Shown: positions 6,753 to 64,000 of the stretch, in pieces
Layout of the letters: each line of letters opens with the position of its first letter
Numbering within the stretch: the stretch's first letter is position 1
Source of the DNA: Oscillospiraceae bacterium
GTDB taxonomy: Bacteria > Bacillota > Clostridia > Oscillospirales > Acutalibacteraceae
Length of the DNA: 64,000 nucleotides
Assembly (NCBI GenBank): GCA_015066295.1
Contig: SVOR01000003.1
Span: forward strand, 1 to 64,000
Reading direction: 5' to 3'
Made by a program: the position numbers and the translations under genes
The notes under the pieces: generated by a model
Database searches by the model: none
Told to the model about the DNA's origin: nothing
The model's input: the letters and a program-made list of their open reading frames with translations, nothing else

Positions 6753-7589
6753 GTGGGTAACGTTTTAAAAGAAATGGAGATTATCGATTATGGCAATTTC
6801 CCCGTGAAGCTTCTTAAAGCCGATACCTCGCCCAACCGCAATTGCTTTCCAATGCATTGGCACGACAGAATGGAGATTTTGCGCATAGAAGAGGGTCGTG
6901 TTAATATAAATTGCGGCAACACGGTGATAACTGCCCAAAAGGATGACATTGTTATAATAAATTGTAAGCAGGTTCACTTTGCCCGTACGGGTGACGAGGG
7001 TGTTAAATATGCCGTTATTATGTTCGAGCTATCCCGATTTTTAGAAAACGAATTTTTTGGAGATATTTACATACGTCAGCTGCTTTTTAAGCGGTTAAAG
7101 ATAAAAAATCTTATAAAAGATGATGAGCTTTTAAATATTCTTGACTCTATTATAAAATACGGCAAAATTCGCGGTGAGCTTTCTGCTATGATGATAGAGG
7201 GCAAGATTTTAGAGTTTTTGGCTATGCTTATTGATAGATATGTCGACGAGGATGAGTCCTACATGGCGAGTGACGAAAAATTCACTGGGGTGCTCGACTA
7301 CGTGGACGAGCATTTTGCAGAGGACCTAAACGTGCCAATGCTTGCGCAAATGTTTGGCTACGATAAATCATATTTTTGCCGAAAATTCAAATCACAGACC
7401 GGTGTAACCTGCGGCTCCTACGTTAATTCACTTCGTATGGAGGCGGCGGGAGCGCTGCTTCGAAAAAATAACGATAGTGTGTCGGTAATAGCGGCAAGGT
7501 GCGGCTATAACGATGCCAACTATTTTTCCCGTTCATTTAAAAAGACCTATGGCGTTACACCTGCCCAGTGGCGTCGGCTATATAAGTAA
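6753..7589 (+). CDS. AraC family transcriptional regulator
   Basis: cupin-like N-terminus; C-terminal HTH_18 (FGYDKSYFCRKFKSQTGVTCGSYVNSLRMEAA...CGYNDANYFSRSFKKTYGVTPAQWRR). Confidence 0.93.
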   Translation: MGNVLKEMEIIDYGNFPVKLLKADTSPNRNCFPMHWHDRMEILRIEEGRVNINCGNTVITAQKDDIVIINCKQVHFARTGDEGVKYAVIMFELSRFLENEFFGDIYIRQLLFKRLKIKNLIKDDELLNILDSIIKYGKIRGELSAMMIEGKILEFLAMLIDRYVDEDESYMASDEKFTGVLDYVDEHFAEDLNVPMLAQMFGYDKSYFCRKFKSQTGVTCGSYVNSLRMEAAGALLRKNNDSVSVIAARCGYNDANYFSRSFKKTYGVTPAQWRRLYK

Positions 7590-8257: not shown

Positions 8258-8332
8258 CCTATAAAATGTTAGATTTTTTCATTAAATATATAACATTTTA
8301 TTGTTTTTTCGAATAAAAATCTTTGTTATAAT
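8258..8332 (+). promoter_or_regulatory. palindrome-bearing promoter element, copy 1
   Basis: acctATAAAATGTTAgattttttcattaaataTATAACATTTTATtgttttttc, then TATAAT; near-identical to 62148-62201. Confidence 0.7.
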
Positions 8333-8474: not shown

Positions 8475-11400
8475 ATGAAAGGCAAAAAACTTTCAAAAGC
8501 ATTGGCTTTTCTATTGGCCGTTGTAATGGTTTTCACAACGTTGCCGATGTTTGCCTTTGCTGAAGGTGAGGCAGAAACATATTGTGTTACTAAAGCTTCA
8601 CCCGCAATTCCTATGAATGCCATGACGCAGGTAAAACTTAGTGATTTAACATTTGAAATCGGCGATTCAATTGTTAATGGCGCTAATGTGGAAATCACAT
8701 TAGACGACACTACTAGCGATGTGGCTATCGGCAATGGTATTATTGTTGCTTATAACAAGGGTGCATACCCCGCAACAATCAGTTATCAAGGCCAAACACA
8801 GACTGTTTACATAGTAGTAAAGAGTTTAAGCGACACCGAATGGGTGCTTTACGAGCAAACATTTGGTGATTACTCGGCCGCTACTACTGAAAATCCTGTA
8901 CCGATTCCTGATGGTTGGGTTTCACAGGCTTACGCAAGTGAGAGCCATCTCGATGCTTCAATAAGATATACATACGTTGAATTTGAAAACGTAAGACCTT
9001 ATGCAACCAGCAATAATACGTTTACGGCCCCCGGTGTTGTACCGATTGGTAAGTACAGAGATTTACCGGGTGGTGTTAGCATGTATGGCGCACCGGCATA
9101 TTTTACACTTAATGATAGTGTTGTAAAGGATTTTGCCGATTACACTATAACCTCTAATATGATTATATATTCTAACAACTACTATTGTGCTTATACTACT
9201 TCACCGGTTGGCGCAGGTCTGTTTGGTCGTGCGCAGGTTAGTGCTACAGGTAGAATGGATGTAGAAAACACCGACTTTAGTGCTATTGTCGTTGACCCTG
9301 CGTCAAGAACTAAGGACGGCGTTGCATACGGTCTAAACGTAGCTCATCTTAAGATGATATCAAAACCCAACAACAGTAATGTTCGCGCAAAGAAAACGGC
9401 AACATTCTTTAAGGAGAATGATGCAAACATTCGTTGGAGCTACCTAAACGGCAAACAAAATAAAGAAGTTTCTTTAACACTTAAATACGACGGTACAACC
9501 GCTACATTATCATCATCTGCAGATACCGAGGCACGTACCTTTACTGTAAGCGACATTGCTGACAATAATGGTGCAGTTGGTGTTGCCGTACAGCAGTTCG
9601 ACGATAGCGGTCAGACAACAGCCGTTAATGTTAAGACCTTTAAGGTTGCACTTAATAACGCACCTGCCGATTGCCCCGTTTATAGCGATATTCCCACCTA
9701 TGAAGTTTCTAAAACGTCACCTGCTATCCCAATGAATGCCATGACTAAGGTTAATATGGCTGACCTTAGTTTTGAAATTCAGGACACTACAGTTAATGGT
9801 AAGTCGGTTGAGCTTACATTGATTGATAATACCGATAATGTAGTAATTAGTGACGGCGCTATTTTTGCTTACAAGAAGGGTATCTACGCCGCTACTTTAA
9901 CCTACGAAGGCGTAGAAAAGACTGTATATATTGTAGTAAAGGACGCAGAGGATAAAGAATGGGTGCTTTACGAAGAGACGTTTGGTGATTATTCAGACGT
10001 TACCTATGAAAGCAATACTGCTTTCCCTGCTGGTTGGGCTGCACAGGCTTATTTAGCAAAGGATGTAAAAGACCTTTCTAATAATGTCTTGACCGATCTT
10101 CAATATTCGTATTTTGATTTCCCGTACGTTTCACCGTATAAAACAAGCTATTACGATATGACTGCCGTGGCACCCGGTATCAACCCGATACCTTCTACGC
10201 GTCTACATCCTGATTACCAATTCAAGGCGTATGGTATGACCGGTTATATGATTCTTAACGATAGCGTTGTAAACGCATTTGCCGATTATACCATTACTTC
10301 AAATATGGTTGTTTTTGGTAACGCTCTATACGTTACACAGGGCACAACGGCAGGTGGCGGTCTATTTGGCCGTGCTATCGTTAATGCTGACGGTAAGTTT
10401 GAAGAAGAATTGACATCACTTACCGGATTTTTAGCTCAACCGACAACCGACCATAACGGCAATGCTGACACCGGTTTACACGTTCATCAGTTAACCGTAA
10501 CTCCGAAATCCGGCGCTACCAACGTATCAGTTTCAAGAACAAAGCTTACCAATAGTGCTTCAAGCACTCAGTGGGAATATTTAAGAGGTAAAAACAAGAA
10601 GGCAATAGACCTCTCTGTTAAATTTGATGGCGCAAAAGCTACACTTTCTTCACCAAGCGATGCAGCCGGAGTTAACTACGTAGTAAATGACGTTGCACAA
10701 AACAATGGTGCAGTTGGTGTTGCTACCAGCTATTTCGATGACGGTGGTCAGGCTACCGTTGTGGTTGTAAAAGAGTTTAAGGTTGCTCTTAACAACACTG
10801 CAGGTTATTGCCCCGCTTATAGCGAGCTTTCAATCTATAAGGTTGACGACAATACACCCGTTGTTCCGATGACTGCTCACTCATACACCAACCTTGCTAA
10901 CGTTATGTTAAGCTTTGGCGATGACCTTGTGTTAGCAAATGCTGCAGAGTGGACTTCACTTGATGAGCAGCCCGTATTTGAAGGCTCGAAGGTTACCGTT
11001 TACGGTGCAGGTACATATACCGCAAAGGCCACCTATAAGGGTGTTACCAAAACTGTTTACTTCGTAGTTAAAAATGCCGATGACGCAAATTACGTTGTTT
11101 ACGGTGCTGACTTTGACCGTGACGTAGGCAACGATTGGACACTTTATAACGGCAGTTTTGCTGTGCTTGATAAGACCGACGTTTACAACGATACGTCTAA
11201 CTACGAGATGTTCAATGGCTTTAAGATTGCCCAAAACAACTATTTGATGCTCGATAACGAGATTATCAGGAACCTGCGCGACTACACAATGAGTGTTGAG
11301 TTTGGTTACAGCGGCACAATGAGTGATAACTCATGGGGTTGTCTATATCTATTAGGACGTGCTGACGTAACAGTGCCTACTGCCGACTTTAACACCGCAA

Positions 11401-13403
11401 TGGTAGGCTTTATGCCGAGATTATCGTCAACACCTATCCGTTTGTTCTACAGGAACGATAAATATAACACCAACTGTAAGGATACCGCAGAGCAAGATTA
11501 CATCTATACCGTTGGTGATTTAGTAGAAGCAACCGTTAAGCTAAATGATAAGCAGGTTATCGCTACTATTGATGGTGTAGAAATTTACGACACCTTAAAG
11601 GATTCAGCTTATACCGCCACTATGAGAGACCGTCTCCCCGTTACGGGTGGTAACGTAGGTCTTAAGGCTTCCTACAACTATGCAATTAAGCGTTACGAAA
11701 TAAGACTTAACGCCGAAACAGTTGAGGGTGCACCTGCTTGCGCACCGCTTAACAACGTTCTTACCAACAACACCCTCTATATGACCGAGGGTACACGCCT
11801 CGCTATGTCAGACGTTAAGCTTGTATTCGGTAATGAAACCGTAGCAGGCGACAAGGCTAAGTGGAGCTACGTTCGAAATGACGTAACAGAGGTTAGTGAC
11901 TTCTTCAAGACCGTTTGTGCATTTACTGAAGGCAGTGAGAATATCACCGCCACCTACAATGGTCAGACCATCAACATCACTATTGTTGTTGAGACAGTTA
12001 AGACCGCTAACACCTATCCGGTGCTTACTTCAATGGTTGAGACCGACGGTAACGGTACAGCCGTTATTAAGCCGGTAGCAGATGACAACTATGCTTATCA
12101 AATTGCCATAACACCTAATGCAGGTTACGTTGTTGATACTGATAAGTCATACGTTTACAGCTACAAGACAACCATTAAGATGCTTGGACGTACTGCAGAC
12201 AGCACAGGTAACACACTTGTTGCCGACTTTGACGCACTTGACGACATTGTAGTTAACCTAACCTTTAAGGCTGACAAAGCTGCTGACGTTACCATGATTG
12301 GTAGCACCATTCGTTACGCAAATGAAGAAACAGGTGTTACCAACGGTATTCGTTTTGGTATGCGTTCATACAACGTTAAGAATGCAAGAATTGATACTAT
12401 AATCGTTGATGGCGTTGAGTATAATGTTGTTGGCGTAGGTATGGTAATGTTGCCGAAACCCTTGCTTGAGGGTGAGCTCACTGTAAACACCAAGAACGCA
12501 CGCTATAAGGAGTTTACCTCGGTAGTTGATTCTACCGCTAACTATGCCGACTTTGCAATGGTGCTTACAAATCTTCCTGAGGAATATCTAACACTTGATA
12601 TTGCTTCACGCGGATTTATTAAGTACGAAATCTCTGAAGGCAATTACGGTTACTACTATGCAGACGAATTACAAAGCTCGTTTGAAAAAATCGAGAAGCG
12701 TATCGAATCTGCAGAGCTCAAGTTTGACTTCTATTATTCTGATTTCGATAAGGGTTATATAACCATGGTTTACGACGACTACCGTGGTGACTTAGGTACA
12801 GTATTTAGTATCTTTGAAGAGAAAAATGTACCTCTCGTTGCTGCAATTCCGCCCGAAACCGTAACCTCTGACAGTAAAGCTGCATTACTTCACAATATTC
12901 AGAATGCAGGCGGCGAAATCATTGGTCACCACTTCACAGTTCTGACATCTGCTATGACTTCAGAGCAGAAGTTTGATAAGCTCAAGACAACCTACGATGT
13001 ATTAACAAGCTACGGACTAAATGTTAATGGTTATATATTAGCAGGTGGTACCAACCAGGGCGATATCAACCGTAAGGAAATTGAAACAATGCTTAGAAAG
13101 ATTGGTTTCAGTTATAGTGATCTTTATGGTATTTCACCTAACTACTACCATCCACGTTCTTCAATGGCTACAAGTAATGATAGCACAATTAAGAAAAATA
13201 TCACTACTGCGGGCAATAGCAAAACATGGCTTTCATTCTATGCTCATGACCTTAATACAGAACGTACGGCAGATGAGTTGCGCGAACTCATTGAGTATAT
13301 CCAGGCTGACCCTAACGTTGAGATTGTTACATATAAGTACATCTATCAAAACTTTGGTAACTTCCGTAATCCTGTAAATTGGAATAACGGTGTTACACAG
13401 TAA
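8475..13403 (+). CDS. large secreted modular protein with C-terminal polysaccharide-deacetylase-like domain
   Basis: signal peptide MKGKKLSKALAFLLAVVMVFTTLPMFAFAEG; repeated modules beginning SPAIPMNAMT; C-terminus YITMVYDDYRGDLGTVFSIFEEKNVPLVAAIPPE...GGEIIGHHF resembles NodB. Confidence 0.75.
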   Translation: MKGKKLSKALAFLLAVVMVFTTLPMFAFAEGEAETYCVTKASPAIPMNAMTQVKLSDLTFEIGDSIVNGANVEITLDDTTSDVAIGNGIIVAYNKGAYPATISYQGQTQTVYIVVKSLSDTEWVLYEQTFGDYSAATTENPVPIPDGWVSQAYASESHLDASIRYTYVEFENVRPYATSNNTFTAPGVVPIGKYRDLPGGVSMYGAPAYFTLNDSVVKDFADYTITSNMIIYSNNYYCAYTTSPVGAGLFGRAQVSATGRMDVENTDFSAIVVDPASRTKDGVAYGLNVAHLKMISKPNNSNVRAKKTATFFKENDANIRWSYLNGKQNKEVSLTLKYDGTTATLSSSADTEARTFTVSDIADNNGAVGVAVQQFDDSGQTTAVNVKTFKVALNNAPADCPVYSDIPTYEVSKTSPAIPMNAMTKVNMADLSFEIQDTTVNGKSVELTLIDNTDNVVISDGAIFAYKKGIYAATLTYEGVEKTVYIVVKDAEDKEWVLYEETFGDYSDVTYESNTAFPAGWAAQAYLAKDVKDLSNNVLTDLQYSYFDFPYVSPYKTSYYDMTAVAPGINPIPSTRLHPDYQFKAYGMTGYMILNDSVVNAFADYTITSNMVVFGNALYVTQGTTAGGGLFGRAIVNADGKFEEELTSLTGFLAQPTTDHNGNADTGLHVHQLTVTPKSGATNVSVSRTKLTNSASSTQWEYLRGKNKKAIDLSVKFDGAKATLSSPSDAAGVNYVVNDVAQNNGAVGVATSYFDDGGQATVVVVKEFKVALNNTAGYCPAYSELSIYKVDDNTPVVPMTAHSYTNLANVMLSFGDDLVLANAAEWTSLDEQPVFEGSKVTVYGAGTYTAKATYKGVTKTVYFVVKNADDANYVVYGADFDRDVGNDWTLYNGSFAVLDKTDVYNDTSNYEMFNGFKIAQNNYLMLDNEIIRNLRDYTMSVEFGYSGTMSDNSWGCLYLLGRADVTVPTADFNTAMVGFMPRLSSTPIRLFYRNDKYNTNCKDTAEQDYIYTVGDLVEATVKLNDKQVIATIDGVEIYDTLKDSAYTATMRDRLPVTGGNVGLKASYNYAIKRYEIRLNAETVEGAPACAPLNNVLTNNTLYMTEGTRLAMSDVKLVFGNETVAGDKAKWSYVRNDVTEVSDFFKTVCAFTEGSENITATYNGQTINITIVVETVKTANTYPVLTSMVETDGNGTAVIKPVADDNYAYQIAITPNAGYVVDTDKSYVYSYKTTIKMLGRTADSTGNTLVADFDALDDIVVNLTFKADKAADVTMIGSTIRYANEETGVTNGIRFGMRSYNVKNARIDTIIVDGVEYNVVGVGMVMLPKPLLEGELTVNTKNARYKEFTSVVDSTANYADFAMVLTNLPEEYLTLDIASRGFIKYEISEGNYGYYYADELQSSFEKIEKRIESAELKFDFYYSDFDKGYITMVYDDYRGDLGTVFSIFEEKNVPLVAAIPPETVTSDSKAALLHNIQNAGGEIIGHHFTVLTSAMTSEQKFDKLKTTYDVLTSYGLNVNGYILAGGTNQGDINRKEIETMLRKIGFSYSDLYGISPNYYHPRSSMATSNDSTIKKNITTAGNSKTWLSFYAHDLNTERTADELRELIEYIQADPNVEIVTYKYIYQNFGNFRNPVNWNNGVTQ

Positions 13404-48166: not shown

Positions 48167-49549
48167 ATGAAAATTGTTGTTTGCATCCGACAAGGGTTGG
48201 ATGGCGATATAAACCCATTTGATGCCTGCGCTTATGAGGCGGCATTGCAAATTGCGGGCAGTGAAATCACGCTACTCAGTATGGGTCCCGAAAAAACCAA
48301 GGACTTTTTGCATCAGCTAACGCGCAGAGGTGCAAAAAATGCTGTTTTGCTTAGTGACGCCGCCTTTGCGGGCGCCGATACCTTGGCAACGGCTTACGCA
48401 CTCGGGTTAGCCATCAAAAAAATAAAGCCCGATATGGTTTTTTGCGGCAGACAAACCTTGGTGGGTGATACCGCGCAAACGGGACCAATGCTTTCTGTTA
48501 TGTGCGATTATTCGCTTATAACGGGCGTAATGGAAATAAAGCAGATAGATAAAAATATCACCTGTATGACACGTACAGAGGGCGAAATTACGGCGGCGCT
48601 TCCGACACTTATAACGGTTGAGCGCATTAACAATCTGCGACTTCCTTCAATACGCTCTAAAACGGGCGAAATTGAGGTCTGGTCGGCCGACGATATTGGT
48701 GCCGATAAGAGCAAATGCGGTCTTATCGGCTCGCCAACTCGGGTGCTTAAAACCTACGAAAACTCACAGGGCAAGCGCAAATGCAAATTTATCACCCTCA
48801 GTGAGCTAGATGAAGTTGTAACCACCGCCCTTGCCGAGCAGAGCAAAAAGCTCGACATTAAAAGCAGTGGCGAGCATAAACTCAAAAAGGTTGTAATAAT
48901 AGGGGAGAACGTTCGCGAATTTGCCGATACTATAAGTGATGACATTTGCTTGCTAACCAACGATGACGAGCAAAAAATTATTGATTATATAGTTAATAAT
49001 AAACCGAATGCGGTTTTGTGGGGCAGTGATGCGCGCTCAAAGCGTATGGCGGCTACCGTAGCCGCAAGGCTCGGGCTCGGTCTTTGCGCCGACTGTACGG
49101 TACTCGAAACCGATGGCGAAAAGCTCATTATGTACCGCCCCGCACTCTCGGGTAGTATAATTGCTAAAATCGAGAGCCTGACAAAGCCCGCAATGGCAAC
49201 CGTACGCACAAAGGATTCGCTTAATAAGGACGTCTTTGTTGCGGTGGGCTATGGCGCAAAAGATAGTCTCGAATGGGTTAAAGACTTGGCGAAAAAGTAT
49301 GATGCCGAGCTATCCTCAACCCGCAAAGCAGTGGATAACGGCATTATGCCGTACGCCACACAGGTCGGTCTTACGGGTCGCAGCGTGGCACCCCCCGTAT
49401 ATATTGCGGTGGGTGTTTCGGGCGCTGTTCACCATATCGTTGGTATGCAGTCGTCGGGCACAGTAATCGCTATAAACAGCGATAAAAATGCCGATATATT
49501 CGACTATGCCGATTACGGCATAATTGAGGATATAGGATTTAGGATTTAG
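48167..49549 (+). CDS. electron transfer flavoprotein, EtfB-EtfA fusion
   Basis: EtfB-like N-half MKIVVCIRQGLDGDINPFDACAYEAALQ; EtfA-like C-half with FAD motif YATQVGLTGRSVAPPVYIAVGVSGAVHHIVGMQSSGTVIAINSDKNADIF. Confidence 0.88.
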   Translation: MKIVVCIRQGLDGDINPFDACAYEAALQIAGSEITLLSMGPEKTKDFLHQLTRRGAKNAVLLSDAAFAGADTLATAYALGLAIKKIKPDMVFCGRQTLVGDTAQTGPMLSVMCDYSLITGVMEIKQIDKNITCMTRTEGEITAALPTLITVERINNLRLPSIRSKTGEIEVWSADDIGADKSKCGLIGSPTRVLKTYENSQGKRKCKFITLSELDEVVTTALAEQSKKLDIKSSGEHKLKKVVIIGENVREFADTISDDICLLTNDDEQKIIDYIVNNKPNAVLWGSDARSKRMAATVAARLGLGLCADCTVLETDGEKLIMYRPALSGSIIAKIESLTKPAMATVRTKDSLNKDVFVAVGYGAKDSLEWVKDLAKKYDAELSSTRKAVDNGIMPYATQVGLTGRSVAPPVYIAVGVSGAVHHIVGMQSSGTVIAINSDKNADIFDYADYGIIEDIGFRI

Positions 49550-49556
49550 GGTATAG
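49526..49556 (+). repeat. TTTAGGA-type heptad repeat, copy D
   Basis: gaggatataggatttaggatttagggtatag; encodes the last residues (EDIGFRI*) of EtfBA. Confidence 0.8.
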
Positions 49557-49557
49557 A

Positions 49558-49587
49558 AAACGGGCGACCATCGGTCGCCCGTTTTTG
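49558..49587 (+). terminator. terminator
   Basis: aaacgggcgaccatcggtcgcccgtttttg. Confidence 0.85.
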
Positions 49588-49675
49588 TTAAATAAATATC
49601 TACAATTGAAAAATCATATTATATATGGTAAAATATAAATGTATATGATTTTATGCTTTCGAGGGAGGCAAAATT

Positions 49676-57124: not shown

Positions 57125-58939
57125 TTACTTTCTTATATTTTTGTACATCGGTCCATAGGCTGCGCAGGCTCTGTAATCCTGTCCTTCCTTGTCCATACCA
57201 AATGCGTTCCAAGCTGATGGACGGAAAATCTTGTCCTCAGGTACGTTGTGCATTGATACGGGGATGCGGAGAATAGAGCAGAGCGTAATTAAATCGGCAC
57301 CGATATGCCCGTAAGAAATTGCGCCATGGTTAGCGCCCCAATTTGCCATAACCTCATAAACGGTCTTAAAGGGGCTGCCGTCTTTGCCGTCACAACGTGG
57401 TGCAAACCATGTGCAAGGCCAGGTGTAGTCGGTGCGCTTCCAAAGTGTATCCGAAACGTCCTCGGGCAGAGCAACTGTCCAACCCTCTGCAATTTGAAGT
57501 ACGGGGCCAAGACCCTTAACGAGGTTAAGACGAATCATTGTTACGGGCATTTCAGTCTTTGTTTCAAAGCGAGAGGAATATCCGCCGCCACGGAAGTAGC
57601 CAAGGTCGGCATAGTTCCAGGTTGTAGCGTCCATAATCTTCTGCTGGTCTTCTTCGGTAATATTATACCATTCTTTCATTACAGCATTACCGTTTTCATC
57701 ACGACATTCTCCACAAGCATCAAGACAGCATGCACCCGAGTTTATAAGGTGAATAATACCGTTTGAGTTCTTTGCCTTGCCTTCAAGCGAATAATTAGCG
57801 GCACGCTTAACGGCATCCTCGCTCCAATAAGTGCGAACGTCGGCAAACATTTGGGCACGATTGGTGAGCAGCTTCATAAACAGCATACCAAGGCCGTTAA
57901 GGACGTCGTTTTCGGTAGCAAGAATATATGGCTCGCGCGCACCCTCCCAGTCGAACGAGGTATTGAGCATTGCCTCAGGGAAGTCGCAGTTGGGGTAGAA
58001 GTCGGTCCATTGACGCTGACCCTGGAAGCCTGCGGCAATAGCGTTATGACCAACCATTTCCTCCTCGCAGCCTTCGGGTAAGTTTTTATTGCCGTTCATA
58101 AGGTCCTTAATTATAACCATCATTTTAACAACAAATTCCCAGTCGGCATCCTTACGCTCGCGAGATTTTTGTAATTCGGCAGGGTTCTTATCAAAGCCCT
58201 CTTTGCAGTATTTTTTAGCCCATTTTAAAGCCTTTTCATACTCAGACTTATCGTAAATCTCCTCGGTCATTCGACGGATAATTTCAACCTCGTCAACCGA
58301 TTCAACACGCATACCGAGGTATTCTTCGATAAATTCGGGGCTGATAATGGAGCCGCCAATACCCATACAAATAGAGCCAATCTGCAAATATGATTTACCA
58401 CGCATTGTGGCGGCGGCAACGGCTGCACGTGCAAAGCGGAGGAGCTTTTCCTTAACGTCCTCAGGCACACAGGTAACCTCATCAAGATTTTGTACGTCGT
58501 GGCCGTAAATACCAAATGCAGGCAGACCCTTTTGAGCGTGAGTTGCAAGCACCGATGCCAAATAAACCGCACCGGGACGTTCGGTACCGTTAAAGCCCCA
58601 AACACCCTTAATTGTCATAGGGTCGGTATCCATTGTTTCCGAACCGTAGCACCAGCAGGGAGTTACGGTAAGCGTAATATCAACACCGGCCTTTCTGAAT
58701 TTGTCGGCGCAGGCGGCAGCCTCACCAACGCGACCGATGGTTGTATCGGCTATAATAACCTTTACGGGCTCGCCGTTGGAATATCTAAGATTTTCTTCAA
58801 AGAGCTTTTTTGCGGCATTAGCCATAGCCATTGTTTGCTCCTCAAGTGATTCACGTACTTTAAGTACACCGCGTCGACCGTCAATGGTGGGACGGATGCC
58901 GATTACGGGATAATCGCCAATCAATCTGTTCTTAGCCAT
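57125..58939 (-). CDS. fucI: L-fucose isomerase
   Basis: [86 protein letters not shown]. Confidence 0.95.
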
Positions 58940-59127: not shown

Positions 59128-60003
59128 GTGAGAATAATGCAGGAATATGTATATCGCGAAACACAGGAGAGGGGCACCGCCGAATTTCCGCTTGAATACC
59201 ACTTTGTTGACGAAAATCATCCAAGGTATGAGATGATGTACCACTGGCACAGCGAGTATGAAATTATATATATAATAAAGGGCGAAATCAATCTTATCCT
59301 TGATGGAAACGAGTGTTTAGCCAAGGCCGGCGACGTTGTTTTTGTGGGGGACCGTGTGTGTCACGGCGGTCACCCAAGCGAATGCGAATATGTCTGCTTA
59401 GTTTTCGACCTTCACGCCTTTAATTCGGGCAATAATCTTATCACCAAGCATATAGATAAACTGCTTAATCACGAAATTAAAATTCAGCGGTTAATACCGA
59501 GAGAGCAAGCGCAGGTTACCGATATTGTTAAAGATATGGTAGGAACCGTGGCCGAGAAAAAAGCAGGGTATGAAATATGCGTTTACGGTCTGCTTTATCA
59601 GGTTATCGGCGCAGCGTTGTCAGAGGGCCTATATACAGCACGCAAAAACGTGGGCACCAAACGTGAGGGAACTTCAAATCATCGCGGTCGCATCCTTATT
59701 AAAAAGGTCATAACGTATATCGAGGAACATTATACCGAGCCTATAACACTCAGCGAGTTATCGGGTATCGCTAATATGTCGAATAAATATTTTTGCACCT
59801 TTTTTTATAATTACACCCATCGCACACCAATAGATTACGTTAATCATTACAGAATAGAATGTGCCTGTGAGCAGCTTCGCAACACCGATAAATCAGTTAT
59901 CGATATTGCGTATGATACGGGCTTTAATGATGCGAGTTATTTCACCAAGGCATTTAAAAAATACGTAGGCGCAACGCCGCTAAATTATCGTAAAAGCTCA
60001 TAA
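59128..60003 (+). CDS. AraC family regulator (divergent from fucI)
   Basis: cupin HWHSEYEIIYIIKGEINLILDG; HTH LSGIANMSNKYFCTFFYNYTHRTPIDYVNHYRIE...TGFNDASYFTKAFKKYVGATPLNYRK. Confidence 0.93.
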   Translation: MRIMQEYVYRETQERGTAEFPLEYHFVDENHPRYEMMYHWHSEYEIIYIIKGEINLILDGNECLAKAGDVVFVGDRVCHGGHPSECEYVCLVFDLHAFNSGNNLITKHIDKLLNHEIKIQRLIPREQAQVTDIVKDMVGTVAEKKAGYEICVYGLLYQVIGAALSEGLYTARKNVGTKREGTSNHRGRILIKKVITYIEEHYTEPITLSELSGIANMSNKYFCTFFYNYTHRTPIDYVNHYRIECACEQLRNTDKSVIDIAYDTGFNDASYFTKAFKKYVGATPLNYRKSS

Positions 60004-60401
60004 AAAAACAACACCCGAAAGGGAGACACTTCGTAAAGAAGTGTTCTCCCTTATTCATTTTTTATATAAAAATTGACACTTTCTACAGATAAGTGTCATA
60101 GTGGGTTACGCAATTTCAAAATGTGCGTAACGGGAGTACATATTTTAAAATTAACCTATCTCAAAAACAAGAATATTAAGTGATATTGTGAGACAGGTCT
60201 CACAGTGATATTTTGCGTTATCACGCAAAGTGATATTGAAACTTGCAGTTTCAGTGATATTATATTCGCCCCAAAAACTCGCGAAGCGAATATAACTTGG
60301 GCGTAGCTCAAATATAACTGCGTAGCAATATAAATCGCCGCCCGCGAATATAACTGTGGCACCTTCCTTACGGAGGGTGCCACAAAGGGTGTTGTTTTTT
60401 T
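60002..60401. repeat. composite hairpin array bounded by 15-bp perfect inverted repeats
   Basis: AAAAAAACAACACCC (60002-60016) and GGGTGTTGTTTTTTT (60387-60401); inside, AGTGATATT at 60179, 60204, 60229, 60253 alternates with palindromes; AATATAACT-type units at 60289-60355. Confidence 0.85.
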
Positions 60402-62142
60402 ATTGTCGTTTAAGACTTTTAATATATTGCGTGGGTGTTTGCCCAAACTCTTTTTTAAACGCAAATATATACGAGTCGGGGCTTTTATATCCAAGCATTT
60501 CGGCGGTACGATGTATTGTTCTATTTTCAACTCGCAATAGATTTTTTGATGCTGCAAGTTTTTTCGAGATTATATATTGTTGCAATGTCATACCTGTTTC
60601 GTTTTTAAACACTGTGCTTAAATATTTACTGTTAAATCCGAATTTAGCGGCGATTGTCTCAACGGTAATCGTATTCCAATTATTGTTGCCGTTTTTATCA
60701 AGAAATGCTTTTATTTTAGACGATATGGATAACGCCGATGCATCCTCTTGATTTTTTGTTGCATTATCGCAGGCAATAAGCAGGGAATTTATAATATCGA
60801 AAAGCTCTTTTGGATTTTTGGTATTCTTTGCTTTTTCAAAAGTTTTATCGGCATCGGGTAGTGTGAAAATCATATTATAGGCAAGGTCGGGTATTTCTAT
60901 ATTGGTATCAAAGCCTATCCACACGTATTTCCAGTTTGCATTGTTTGCTTTAAAATAGAATTCGCTGTTTGGCGGCAAATAAAAGCAACGTCCCGTATTG
61001 GCACGGATAATACAATTGGATTTTGTGTCGCGTTTGGGTAAAGCAGATAATATATCCGCCTGTGCCTTTTGGCAGGTACGTGTGTTCGGGCGAGTAATCA
61101 GCTTATAATCGCTTACCGTAATTATTGCGCCGGCAGGCTGTGAGTAGGACGCGGCACAATAATCCGATTTAGCTATCGGTCTGTTCTTTTGATTAAGCCT
61201 TGTAATAAAGCCCATACGCTTATAAACCCAAAAGCCGTTATCTGTTGTGAAAATTTCACATGATAGGGTATAGTCGGCAAAATGCTTTACAATATCAGAA
61301 TTCAGCTTTAAAACAAATGGGATTACATTGTTGGTAATTTCCAAAAAAGCTTTAAAGGGTCCGCTTTCAATAAGTTTAACGTTTTTGAGCGGCAGCTTAT
61401 CAAAAAACTGTTCTACGGTAAACGGGTTGTCTTCTTTATTCCAATTTTTAAATTCGTAAGAAAATAAAACAAAATTGCCGTCCTTATCGGTTTTGCTTAC
61501 AATGAAGAACTTTTTAACCCTTTTTTGATATTCGCCGTAAAGGGTGTAGACGCCTTGCTTTTTAACCTTAAAGGTATTGTTTTTTAAAACTACGTCCGCT
61601 TCTTCACAGCTCCACTTAATTTGTCTGCCATTCACTGAAATTTTTTGTGAAAAGCCAAAGTTAAAATCATTTAAATTATATTCCGTATTAATGCGAATGG
61701 GTATTGCCGGGCTTGAATACTTTACGGTGTGTGGGGTGTTTGGCGCTATGGCATTTTTGTTATTAAGCGTTATGTTAAAGTTTTTGATATGTATAGCCAT
61801 ATCGTGCGAATATATACCTACCGTGCCGTTGCTCGTTGGTATTTTTTGCTTTTTACCTATAAAGGCGGGGTCTTTTTCGGTGTCGTATAATTCAATTTCG
61901 TCGTCGCCATTTTTCGCTATATACATTTTTATGTGTTGCCCGTTAAAACAAGTGCGCAAATTATAAATAACGTCGGTGCGTCTAATTGTACCACTGCCCG
62001 AGGTTGTAAAACCAAAAACGTGGTAGGGTATTCTAAAAGGCCCGCAAAGACTGTTTGCAGGTTCGCTTTCTTCGTTTACTGTTTTGGGTGTTATGTATAT
62101 ATCGCCGTGTGTTATATTTTGATAGTTTTTTAAATCGTCCAT
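60400..62142 (-). CDS. AraC family regulator with N-terminal module homologous to the 8475-13403 secreted protein
   Basis: C-terminal HTH ITVETIAAKFGFNSKYLSTVFKNETGMTLQQYII...LGYKSPDSYIFAFKKEFGQTPTQYIKSLKRQ; N-part shares SPAIP, FADYT and IELYDT/VGI signatures with the secreted repeats. Confidence 0.85.
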   Translation of the reverse strand: MDDLKNYQNITHGDIYITPKTVNEESEPANSLCGPFRIPYHVFGFTTSGSGTIRRTDVIYNLRTCFNGQHIKMYIAKNGDDEIELYDTEKDPAFIGKKQKIPTSNGTVGIYSHDMAIHIKNFNITLNNKNAIAPNTPHTVKYSSPAIPIRINTEYNLNDFNFGFSQKISVNGRQIKWSCEEADVVLKNNTFKVKKQGVYTLYGEYQKRVKKFFIVSKTDKDGNFVLFSYEFKNWNKEDNPFTVEQFFDKLPLKNVKLIESGPFKAFLEITNNVIPFVLKLNSDIVKHFADYTLSCEIFTTDNGFWVYKRMGFITRLNQKNRPIAKSDYCAASYSQPAGAIITVSDYKLITRPNTRTCQKAQADILSALPKRDTKSNCIIRANTGRCFYLPPNSEFYFKANNANWKYVWIGFDTNIEIPDLAYNMIFTLPDADKTFEKAKNTKNPKELFDIINSLLIACDNATKNQEDASALSISSKIKAFLDKNGNNNWNTITVETIAAKFGFNSKYLSTVFKNETGMTLQQYIISKKLAASKNLLRVENRTIHRTAEMLGYKSPDSYIFAFKKEFGQTPTQYIKSLKRQ

Positions 62143-62147
62143 ACGTC

Positions 62148-62226
62148 ACCTATAAAATGTTAGATTTCTTAGTAATTATATAACATTTTATTGTTTTTTT
62201 CAAGAAAAAATTCGGGTAAAATAAAA
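62148..62226 (+). promoter_or_regulatory. palindrome-bearing promoter element, copy 2
   Basis: accTATAAAATGTTAgatttcttagtaattaTATAACATTTTATtgtttttttc then taaaat; between the divergent regulator gene and an RNA candidate. Confidence 0.7.
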
Positions 62227-62452
62227 ATGGTCCTATTAAATTTAATAGTGACCTCCTAGTATTTACGTATGGCTGATGTAGAACGCTTATTTTAAGCGGT
62301 TATGCATCGGTCATACGGTTGTACACATTTATTTAATATTTAAAATGGTGAGGGAGAAGAGATTACCTGGAGTGACCTCTGGACTTCGGCCATGAACAAA
62401 CAGTAATATTTAGCAAAAATCCCGACAGAGTATTCTGTCGGGATTTATTTTT
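62222..62452 (+). ncRNA. candidate structured non-coding RNA with terminator
   Basis: long stem CGTATGGCTGATG/CATCGGTCATACG enclosing AACGCTTA/TAAGCGGTT; ends at terminator aaaatcccgacagagtattctgtcgggatttatttttttt; no convincing ORF. Confidence 0.4.
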
Positions 62453-63189: not shown

Positions 63190-63204
63190 TGGGGGTTGAA
63201 AAAG

Positions 63205-64000
63205 ATGATTAAAAGGTTATTTGCATTGCTCTTGTGTGTAGCAGTTATGTTTTCGCTTGTTGCGTGTGGTGGCGGTAGCGAGAGCGGCGGCACCAATAAC
63301 AAGGGCGAAAAGGTAAATTATGGTAGCGTTAAGCTAATCGAAGAGTATGAAGACACCATAACGGGCGTATTTGACGAAAAAAATATTGTTCTTACGTTCG
63401 CAGCACTTAGTGACACACACTTAGCCGGAAATGAGCAACAGTATCAATCATCATATGATAGATTCACAAAGGCCATAAATTCGTGTGAAAAGTTTGCTAC
63501 TACCAAAAAGTTAGATGCCATTTGTATTGCGGGTGACTTGGGTAATTGTACAAATTCACCTGCTAACGTAATTGGGGTTAAGGACGGTCAGACTAAAGAG
63601 CAAGCACAGGCAGAACAGGGAAAAATTGAACGCGAAAACTTTTTACGCGCATATCTTGCCGCAGCCGATGTTAAAACAAAACTTTTTTACTGCCTTGGCA
63701 ACCACGATAGCATGAATGGATCTAACGCGCAGTTATACATTGATTCGTTCTCCGGTAAGAACAAGCAGTATTATAATCGCTTCTATGGTGATGACCTTGA
63801 TAAAGAAGCATTGGTTAAGGGTAACAGACACGTTAAAATTAACGGATATAACTTCTTGGCTCTTGAAGGTTCAGCTGAAGGAAAAACCGATGCCGATGGA
63901 CATGCATGGCTTGAATCGAAGATTAAGTCTATTATTGCTGAGGATCCGCAACAAACCATATTCTTATTCCATCATTATCCCCCTACAGGCCTTGCGTTTG
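63205..64000 (+). CDS. calcineurin-like metallophosphoesterase lipoprotein (3' truncated by window)
   Basis: ATG at 63205; lipobox SLVAC; TFAALSDTHLAG, CIAGDLGN, CLGNHDS, LFHHYPP; open to the window end. Confidence 0.85.
   Translation, partial: MIKRLFALLLCVAVMFSLVACGGGSESGGTNNKGEKVNYGSVKLIEEYEDTITGVFDEKNIVLTFAALSDTHLAGNEQQYQSSYDRFTKAINSCEKFATTKKLDAICIAGDLGNCTNSPANVIGVKDGQTKEQAQAEQGKIERENFLRAYLAAADVKTKLFYCLGNHDSMNGSNAQLYIDSFSGKNKQYYNRFYGDDLDKEALVKGNRHVKINGYNFLALEGSAEGKTDADGHAWLESKIKSIIAEDPQQTIFLFHHYPPTGLAF

Follow-up and report, generated by a model that had tools for sequence, protein, structure and literature searches.

Gene organization and domain layout of R1

Near the right end of the window, as we call the whole 64,000-nucleotide stretch analysed here, lies the gene of a chimeric AraC-family regulator (R1), whose cupin is interrupted by a module of the kind found in secreted surface proteins. 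An AraC regulator had been placed here on the minus strand by the initial annotation, and the open reading frame, the coordinates, the strand and the helix-turn-helix (HTH) all agree with that assignment. Beside R1, a fucose-isomerase-like gene recognized by eye (57125-58939, minus strand) is divergent from an ordinary AraC regulator (59128-60003, plus strand). The features of R1, and the secreted protein with which it was compared, are as follows.

60400-62142, minus strand: R1, chimeric AraC-family regulator, 580 aa (open reading frame, Pfam, paralogue R2 of like architecture)
61954-62142, minus strand: first part of the split cupin (AraC ligand-binding domain), residues 1-63 (PF02311 test on the joined protein; hhalign)
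60994-61953, minus strand: inserted, circularly permuted surface-protein module, residues 64-383 (BLASTP, profile searches, rotation test)
61753-61953, minus strand: C-terminal part of a ConA-like (3keto-disac_hyd type) domain, residues 64-130 (profile match)
61489-61731, minus strand: Ig-like domain, residues 138-218 (profile, 58.6 bits; AF2 pLDDT about 95; structure comparison)
60994-61479, minus strand: N-terminal part of the ConA-like domain, residues 222-383 (profile match)
60853-60993, minus strand: second part of the split cupin, residues 384-430 (PF02311 positions 44-77 at residues 380-412; joined test)
60412-60669, minus strand: AraC double HTH, approximately residues 492-577 (PF00165/PF12833; AF2; Foldseek)
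8475-13403, plus strand: secreted protein, 1642 aa, with four Ig-like repeats, ConA-like repeats and, by eye, a deacetylase-like C-terminus (profile; signal peptide by hydropathy)

The C-terminal region of R1 matches HTH_AraC with an E-value of 6e-17 (Pfam), and the double HTH scores above the cut-offs of both families (61.8 bits against 26.6 for PF00165 and 57.3 against 33.6 for PF12833). A Foldseek search with the AF2 model of R1 also matched this part to AraC-family DNA-binding domains. No signal peptide or membrane segment was found in R1, as had been proposed initially: its highest 19-residue hydropathy is 0.88, compared with 2.38 for the 1642-aa secreted protein (8475-13403). The net charges of the two proteins are +21 and -64, respectively.

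A circularly permuted module nested in the cupin

BLASTP between R1 and the 1642-aa secreted protein returned several independent stretches (E 1e-12 to 3e-6) in which several of the repeats were matched, and the peptides quoted in the initial annotation fall within these stretches. A module profile was also built, which drew only on secreted repeats, taken from this genome and from others, and excluded the regulators; its match to the Ig-like domain of R1 covers residues 139-218 and scores 58.6 bits (i-E 7e-20). Profile-profile comparison of the R1 module with modules of other Clostridia gave an E-value of 1.5e-12, so that the HMM-HMM similarity proposed as a check is significant. The homology first claimed for the N-terminal ~330 aa was thus upheld by BLASTP and profiles for residues 64-383, and residues 1-63 had to be reassigned to the cupin. 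In structure comparison (VIA-align), the Ig-like part, modelled by AF2 with a pLDDT of about 95, was closest among bacterial Ig folds to LigA (Z 7.0) and EA1 (Z 6.7), both below 8.

The second domain type of the module appears, from sequence profiles, to be PF06439 (3-keto-disaccharide hydrolase/DUF1080, ConA-like). Native-order homologues from other Clostridia pass the cut-off of this family (L063, 28.2 bits; L073, 55.9 bits), the permuted copy in intact R1 is not reported by Pfam, and a weak sequence match in the PDB connects the ConA-like domain of the module to the CBM66 of a levanase (E 0.02). In R1 the domain is split and the order of its pieces is reversed: profile positions 152-223 correspond to residues 57-134, ahead of the Ig-like domain, and positions 44-82 correspond to residues 278-309, past it. 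With the insert rotated to the native order, the top score for a single domain rose from 17.5 to 41.2 bits in R1 and from 23.8 to 46.4 bits in R2, whereas the maxima over 200 composition shuffles were 10.2 and 7.6 bits, respectively. Judged by these profiles, the order of the insert (jelly-roll C-half, Ig, jelly-roll N-half) is that of one complete module, circularly permuted. The split profile match bears out the earlier description of the slice as the end of one module plus the start of the next, which amounts to a one-period circular permutation.

AF2 models of full-length R1 and of the insert alone, computed from alignments that left out R2, are good for the Ig-like domain and the HTH and contain no model of the cupin or of insert residues 320-373, so the closure of the permuted fold rests on the sequence profiles. 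Foldseek with the permuted insert gave only Ig-type or low-quality matches, since a sequential aligner is unsuited to a permuted domain. A slice of one period taken from a tandem array is necessarily a circular permutation wherever it is cut; such a slice would make a foldable module with adjacent ends, which could have entered the cupin in one step.

Intact R1 shows only a fragment of PF02311 in Pfam (residues 380-412, 14.9 bits). After removal of residues 64-383, the match becomes continuous from residue 31 and reaches 33.6 bits (E 3.7e-8; cut-off 21.1); alternative joins scored 23.7 to 26 bits. In hhalign, five ordinary AraC proteins encoded in this genome match the joined R1 and R2 cupins colinearly through the point of joining; together with the PF02311 match of the joined protein, this result indicates that the module occupies a cupin turn. 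Because PF02311 stays below Pfam thresholds in R2, the joined form included, the split cupin rests on R1 and on the R1-R2 alignment. A gene fusion, as suggested at first, is plausible on this evidence, but as a domain inserted into the cupin and not as an N-terminal addition, given that PF02311 is restored once residues 64-383 are taken out.

Paralogue R2 and the origin of the chimera

A second chimera, R2 (579 aa), is encoded on contig C36 of the same genome (L022:638-2377), with junctions as in R1 and 39% identity over the full length. The fusion is therefore not confined to one misassembled contig, and the search for other AraC proteins of this architecture yielded R2 and none among the other genomes searched. 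Identity between R1 and R2 is 29% in the N-cupin, 45% in the jelly-roll C-half, 53% in the Ig-like domain, 36% in the jelly-roll N-half, 43% in the C-cupin and 36% in the HTH; by these values, constraint on the insert is no weaker than on the DNA-binding domain. The conservation of the Ig-like domain and the jelly-roll C-half above that of the HTH or the N-cupin suggests that the insert has been kept by selection.

In the Ig-domain tree, built on few columns, R1 and R2 group together as a clade (100/100) that has a long branch and falls outside the secreted modules of the genus itself. This clade suggests one old fusion and then a duplication that gave R1 and R2, and its position speaks against a recent copy of the module from the 8475 protein. 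A mobile in-frame insertion element was also considered and found no support: a protein search of the genome returned only diverged relatives of the insert, and the three segments differ little in GC content. Outside this genome, no chimera was found in overlapping samples of the family (n=100), genus (n=4), order (n=394), class (n=391) and phylum (n=398), in viral contigs, or in a contig scan with the two-regulator alignment, which was based on two peptide patterns only. Module proteins are present in the other three genomes of the genus (two of them ~86% complete), and no chimera was found there.

Secreted module proteins and shared promoter elements

R2 is divergently transcribed from the gene of a 926-aa secreted protein (C36) with the same modules, at a distance of 210 bp. 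The signal peptide of this partner, MKRAKFSKVLAFLLAAVMIFSALPLMAFA, was read directly and has no YSIRK-G/S motif. R1 adjoins no module gene, and its presumed target, the 8475 gene, lies ~52 kb away. By eye, the secreted proteins have deacetylase-, phosphatase- and lyase-like parts. A lipoprotein-type metallophosphatase near R1 (63196-64000, plus strand) begins with a stretch that, by eye, resembles the C-terminal domain of module protein C18. In Clostridia MAGs, many of them of ruminant and other herbivore gut origin, the module of Ig-like and 3keto-disac_hyd domains comes joined to a range of parts that look catalytic (L052, L054, L022, L023, L053, L062-L081), including GDPD (Pfam) and metallophosphatase-, alpha/beta-hydrolase-, beta-helix- and deacetylase-like parts (by eye).

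The following elements were located around the promoters of R1 and of the 8475 gene.

62175-62203, minus strand: R1 promoter, TTGAAA-17-TATAAT (11/12)
62153-62190, unstranded: inverted repeat TAAAATGTTA-N18-TAACATTTTA over the R1 promoter, candidate R1 operator (repeat search, window and genome)
8262-8300, unstranded: inverted repeat TAAAATGTTA-N19-TAACATTTTA, candidate R1 target, upstream of the 8475 gene
62266-62317, plus strand: conserved leader-type RNA hairpin, z -5.4, pointing away from R1
62417-62446, plus strand: intrinsic terminator of a short divergent transcript, before trmB

The perfect inverted repeat at the R1 promoter flanks the -10, and between the end of the repeat at 8262-8300 and the downstream TATAAT (8327-8332) of the 8475 gene lie ~26 bases. 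The full repeat has two matches in the window against 0.00 expected, and its 16-base core occurs exactly twice in the 1.54-Mb genome, at R1 and at 8475; other genomes of the genus hold zero to two sites each. Around the repeat, the two promoter regions are 92% identical over 53 bp, a likeness that could partly reflect duplication instead of an operator. A second element, TAATAAAYTWTGTKCCACAWWT, has sites without mismatch only in the C36/R2, C21 and C18 intergenic regions, all belonging to module genes. As this pattern was derived from its own three sites, the telling feature is its distance from the next-best site in this genome, which has 3 mismatches and lies away from module genes. The link of R1 and R2 to the surface proteins also appears to be regulatory, by way of shared promoter elements, a connection absent from the initial annotation.

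The leaders of C36 and C21 in this genome are 90% identical over 135 bp. The leader hairpin, GTATRGGCTGAYGT...TGCRTYGGTCWTAC, is present in exactly three genome copies, upstream of C36, upstream of C21 and beside R1; the two copies outside the window lie in L022 (~2501-2543) and L054 (~7454-7496), and the hairpin shows changes on both sides of the stem. Rfam gave no match for this hairpin at the gathering threshold, and lower-threshold matches mostly overlap the terminator region. Elsewhere in the window (49454-49647, plus strand), the enterobacterial sRNA STnc540 scored 38.5 bits against an Rfam cut-off of 38, probably by chance. A short transcript next to R1 runs divergently from it (62340-62446, plus strand). 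It has a hairpin, perhaps an ORF of 16 codons (MVREKRLPGVTSGLRP), and a strong terminator ahead of trmB, and may represent either a small RNA or what is left of a leader. The ancestral unit may have consisted of regulator, operator, hairpin leader and module gene, an arrangement still complete at R2/C36; from it, R1 appears to have lost the module gene and C21 the regulator, and 8475 appears to retain the operator alone.

Proposed working of the switches and alternative explanations

Our reading, held with slightly better than even confidence, is that R1 and R2 are two divergent AraC switches of surface-module genes, which probably sense a ligand through their nested module copy. The nested, permuted architecture, the pair of paralogues, the shared promoter elements and the divergent gene pair are observed, and from them we infer DNA binding, direction of control, ligand and allostery. 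In the cytoplasm, a ligand would be bound by the nested Ig plus ConA-like module, which a single break has rotated such that its two ends adjoin within a turn of the R1 cupin. The likeliest ligand is a glycan or an oligosaccharide akin to the ligand of the surface proteins, and a cupin ligand may take part as well. A glycan is favoured by the ConA-like domain type and by the hydrolase-like domains on the secreted proteins (GDPD in relatives). Ligand binding would alter the cupin or the dimer, and with it the way in which the C-terminal HTH pair binds DNA. The DNA site of R1 would be the TAAAATGTTA-N18/19-TAACATTTTA repeat; R1 may repress itself, the -10 of its promoter being flanked by the repeat, and may activate the 8475 surface-protein gene, which has the repeat immediately ahead of the -35 region and a good -10 beyond it. 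R2 would act alike through TAATAAAYTWTGTKCCACAWWT at its divergent partner C36 and at two further surface-module genes (C21 and C18). This arrangement suggests that the same kind of module is used outside for work and inside to switch that work on. A more specific version, in which the permuted target-type module in the cupin makes an allosteric switch as an inside proxy, responding to a shared ligand or to unexported surface protein, is possible but in our view doubtful.

The main rival to a glycan as the sensed ligand is homotypic binding, by which the nested module would recognize unexported surface protein and the regulator would report its cytoplasmic backlog. The module is common to the regulators and to the targets that they seem to control, and neighbouring modules may touch in the tandem arrays in which they come; however, the regulator modules are not the closest relatives of the target modules in the Ig-domain tree, a single module per regulator suits a small ligand equally well, and we judge this explanation distinctly unlikely. 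The insert might also be a passive remnant that is tolerated in a loop or replaces the function of the cupin, with the regulator acting via the cupin or constitutively. Domain insertions are often tolerated and the R2 cupin has diverged, yet R1 and R2 are both full-length open frames with like junctions, and the insert is conserved above the DNA-binding domain at an overall identity of 39%; this possibility, too, seems unlikely, if still worth keeping in mind.

The two remaining explanations concern the structure of the gene itself. A plain N-terminal fusion, consisting of a surface module and then the AraC HTH with no cupin, would suit the sub-threshold Pfam cupin of intact R1, but the PF02311 score of the protein without residues 64-383 and its colinear alignment across the join make it very improbable. 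The genome is a draft of 44 contigs with R2 on a contig of 5.4 kb, but an assembly or binning artefact has negligible probability in view of two 39%-identical copies with like junctions and the 90% identity of the C36 leader to the C21 leader in the same genome. Misassembly of R1 in particular is ruled out by R2, which has the same junctions at another place in the genome.

Comparison with known systems and significance

R1 shares with the AraC/XylS family (AraC, RhaS/RhaR) the C-terminal double HTH and a cupin that is recognizable after removal of the insert, but differs from it in the 320-aa module of secreted proteins that interrupts this cupin. RhaR has an inverted-repeat or divergent promoter layout, and the promoters of R1 and R2 resemble those of AraC and RhaS/RhaR in this respect. 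The best NCBIfam match of both regulators is TIGR04094 (YSIRK-targeted surface antigen transcriptional regulator), at 55.2 bits for R1 and 71.6 bits for R2, covering the HTH part only and far below the cut-off of 200. As in TIGR04094 systems, an AraC-type regulator is paired with a tandem-repeat surface-protein gene, from which R2 is divergent; unlike in those systems, the signal peptide of the partner lacks YSIRK and the regulator contains a module of the kind found in its partner. In Streptococcus, the AraC-type Spy1337 lies next to and divergent from surface protein R28 and is a proposed activator (PMC7098570).

Engineered domain insertions (AraC-LOV2, AraC-PDZ) make AraC switchable (PMC10558690). 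Like R1, these hybrids hold a foreign domain within AraC, with function given or kept, but they are man-made, and most of the insertion sites that give switches fall in the region joining the ligand-binding to the DNA-binding domain (I113, S170) (PMC10558690). The R1 insertion differs in position, being located at a turn of the cupin. Among RNA polymerase insertions, inserted domains have been noted as themselves permuted (PMC13114784). The native-order homologues of the module reach the PF06439 cut-off, and the resemblance to CBM66-type ConA-like domains is weak; the R1 copy differs from these domains in its circular permutation, its cytoplasmic location and its place within a transcription factor. 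In the literature searched, of which coverage is incomplete, we found neither a description of a regulator that nests a module of its presumed targets nor work combining AraC, domain insertion and cupin.

If the proposed reading is true, R1 and R2 would be a clear case of a sensor evolved from its own regulon, and a natural counterpart of the engineered domain-insertion switches. They would also point to a simple origin for circular permutation, in which a one-period slice of a tandem array, taken at an arbitrary phase, is both permuted and foldable. For the surface proteins of gut Clostridia, the elements described here would provide a predicted regulon together with its operators.
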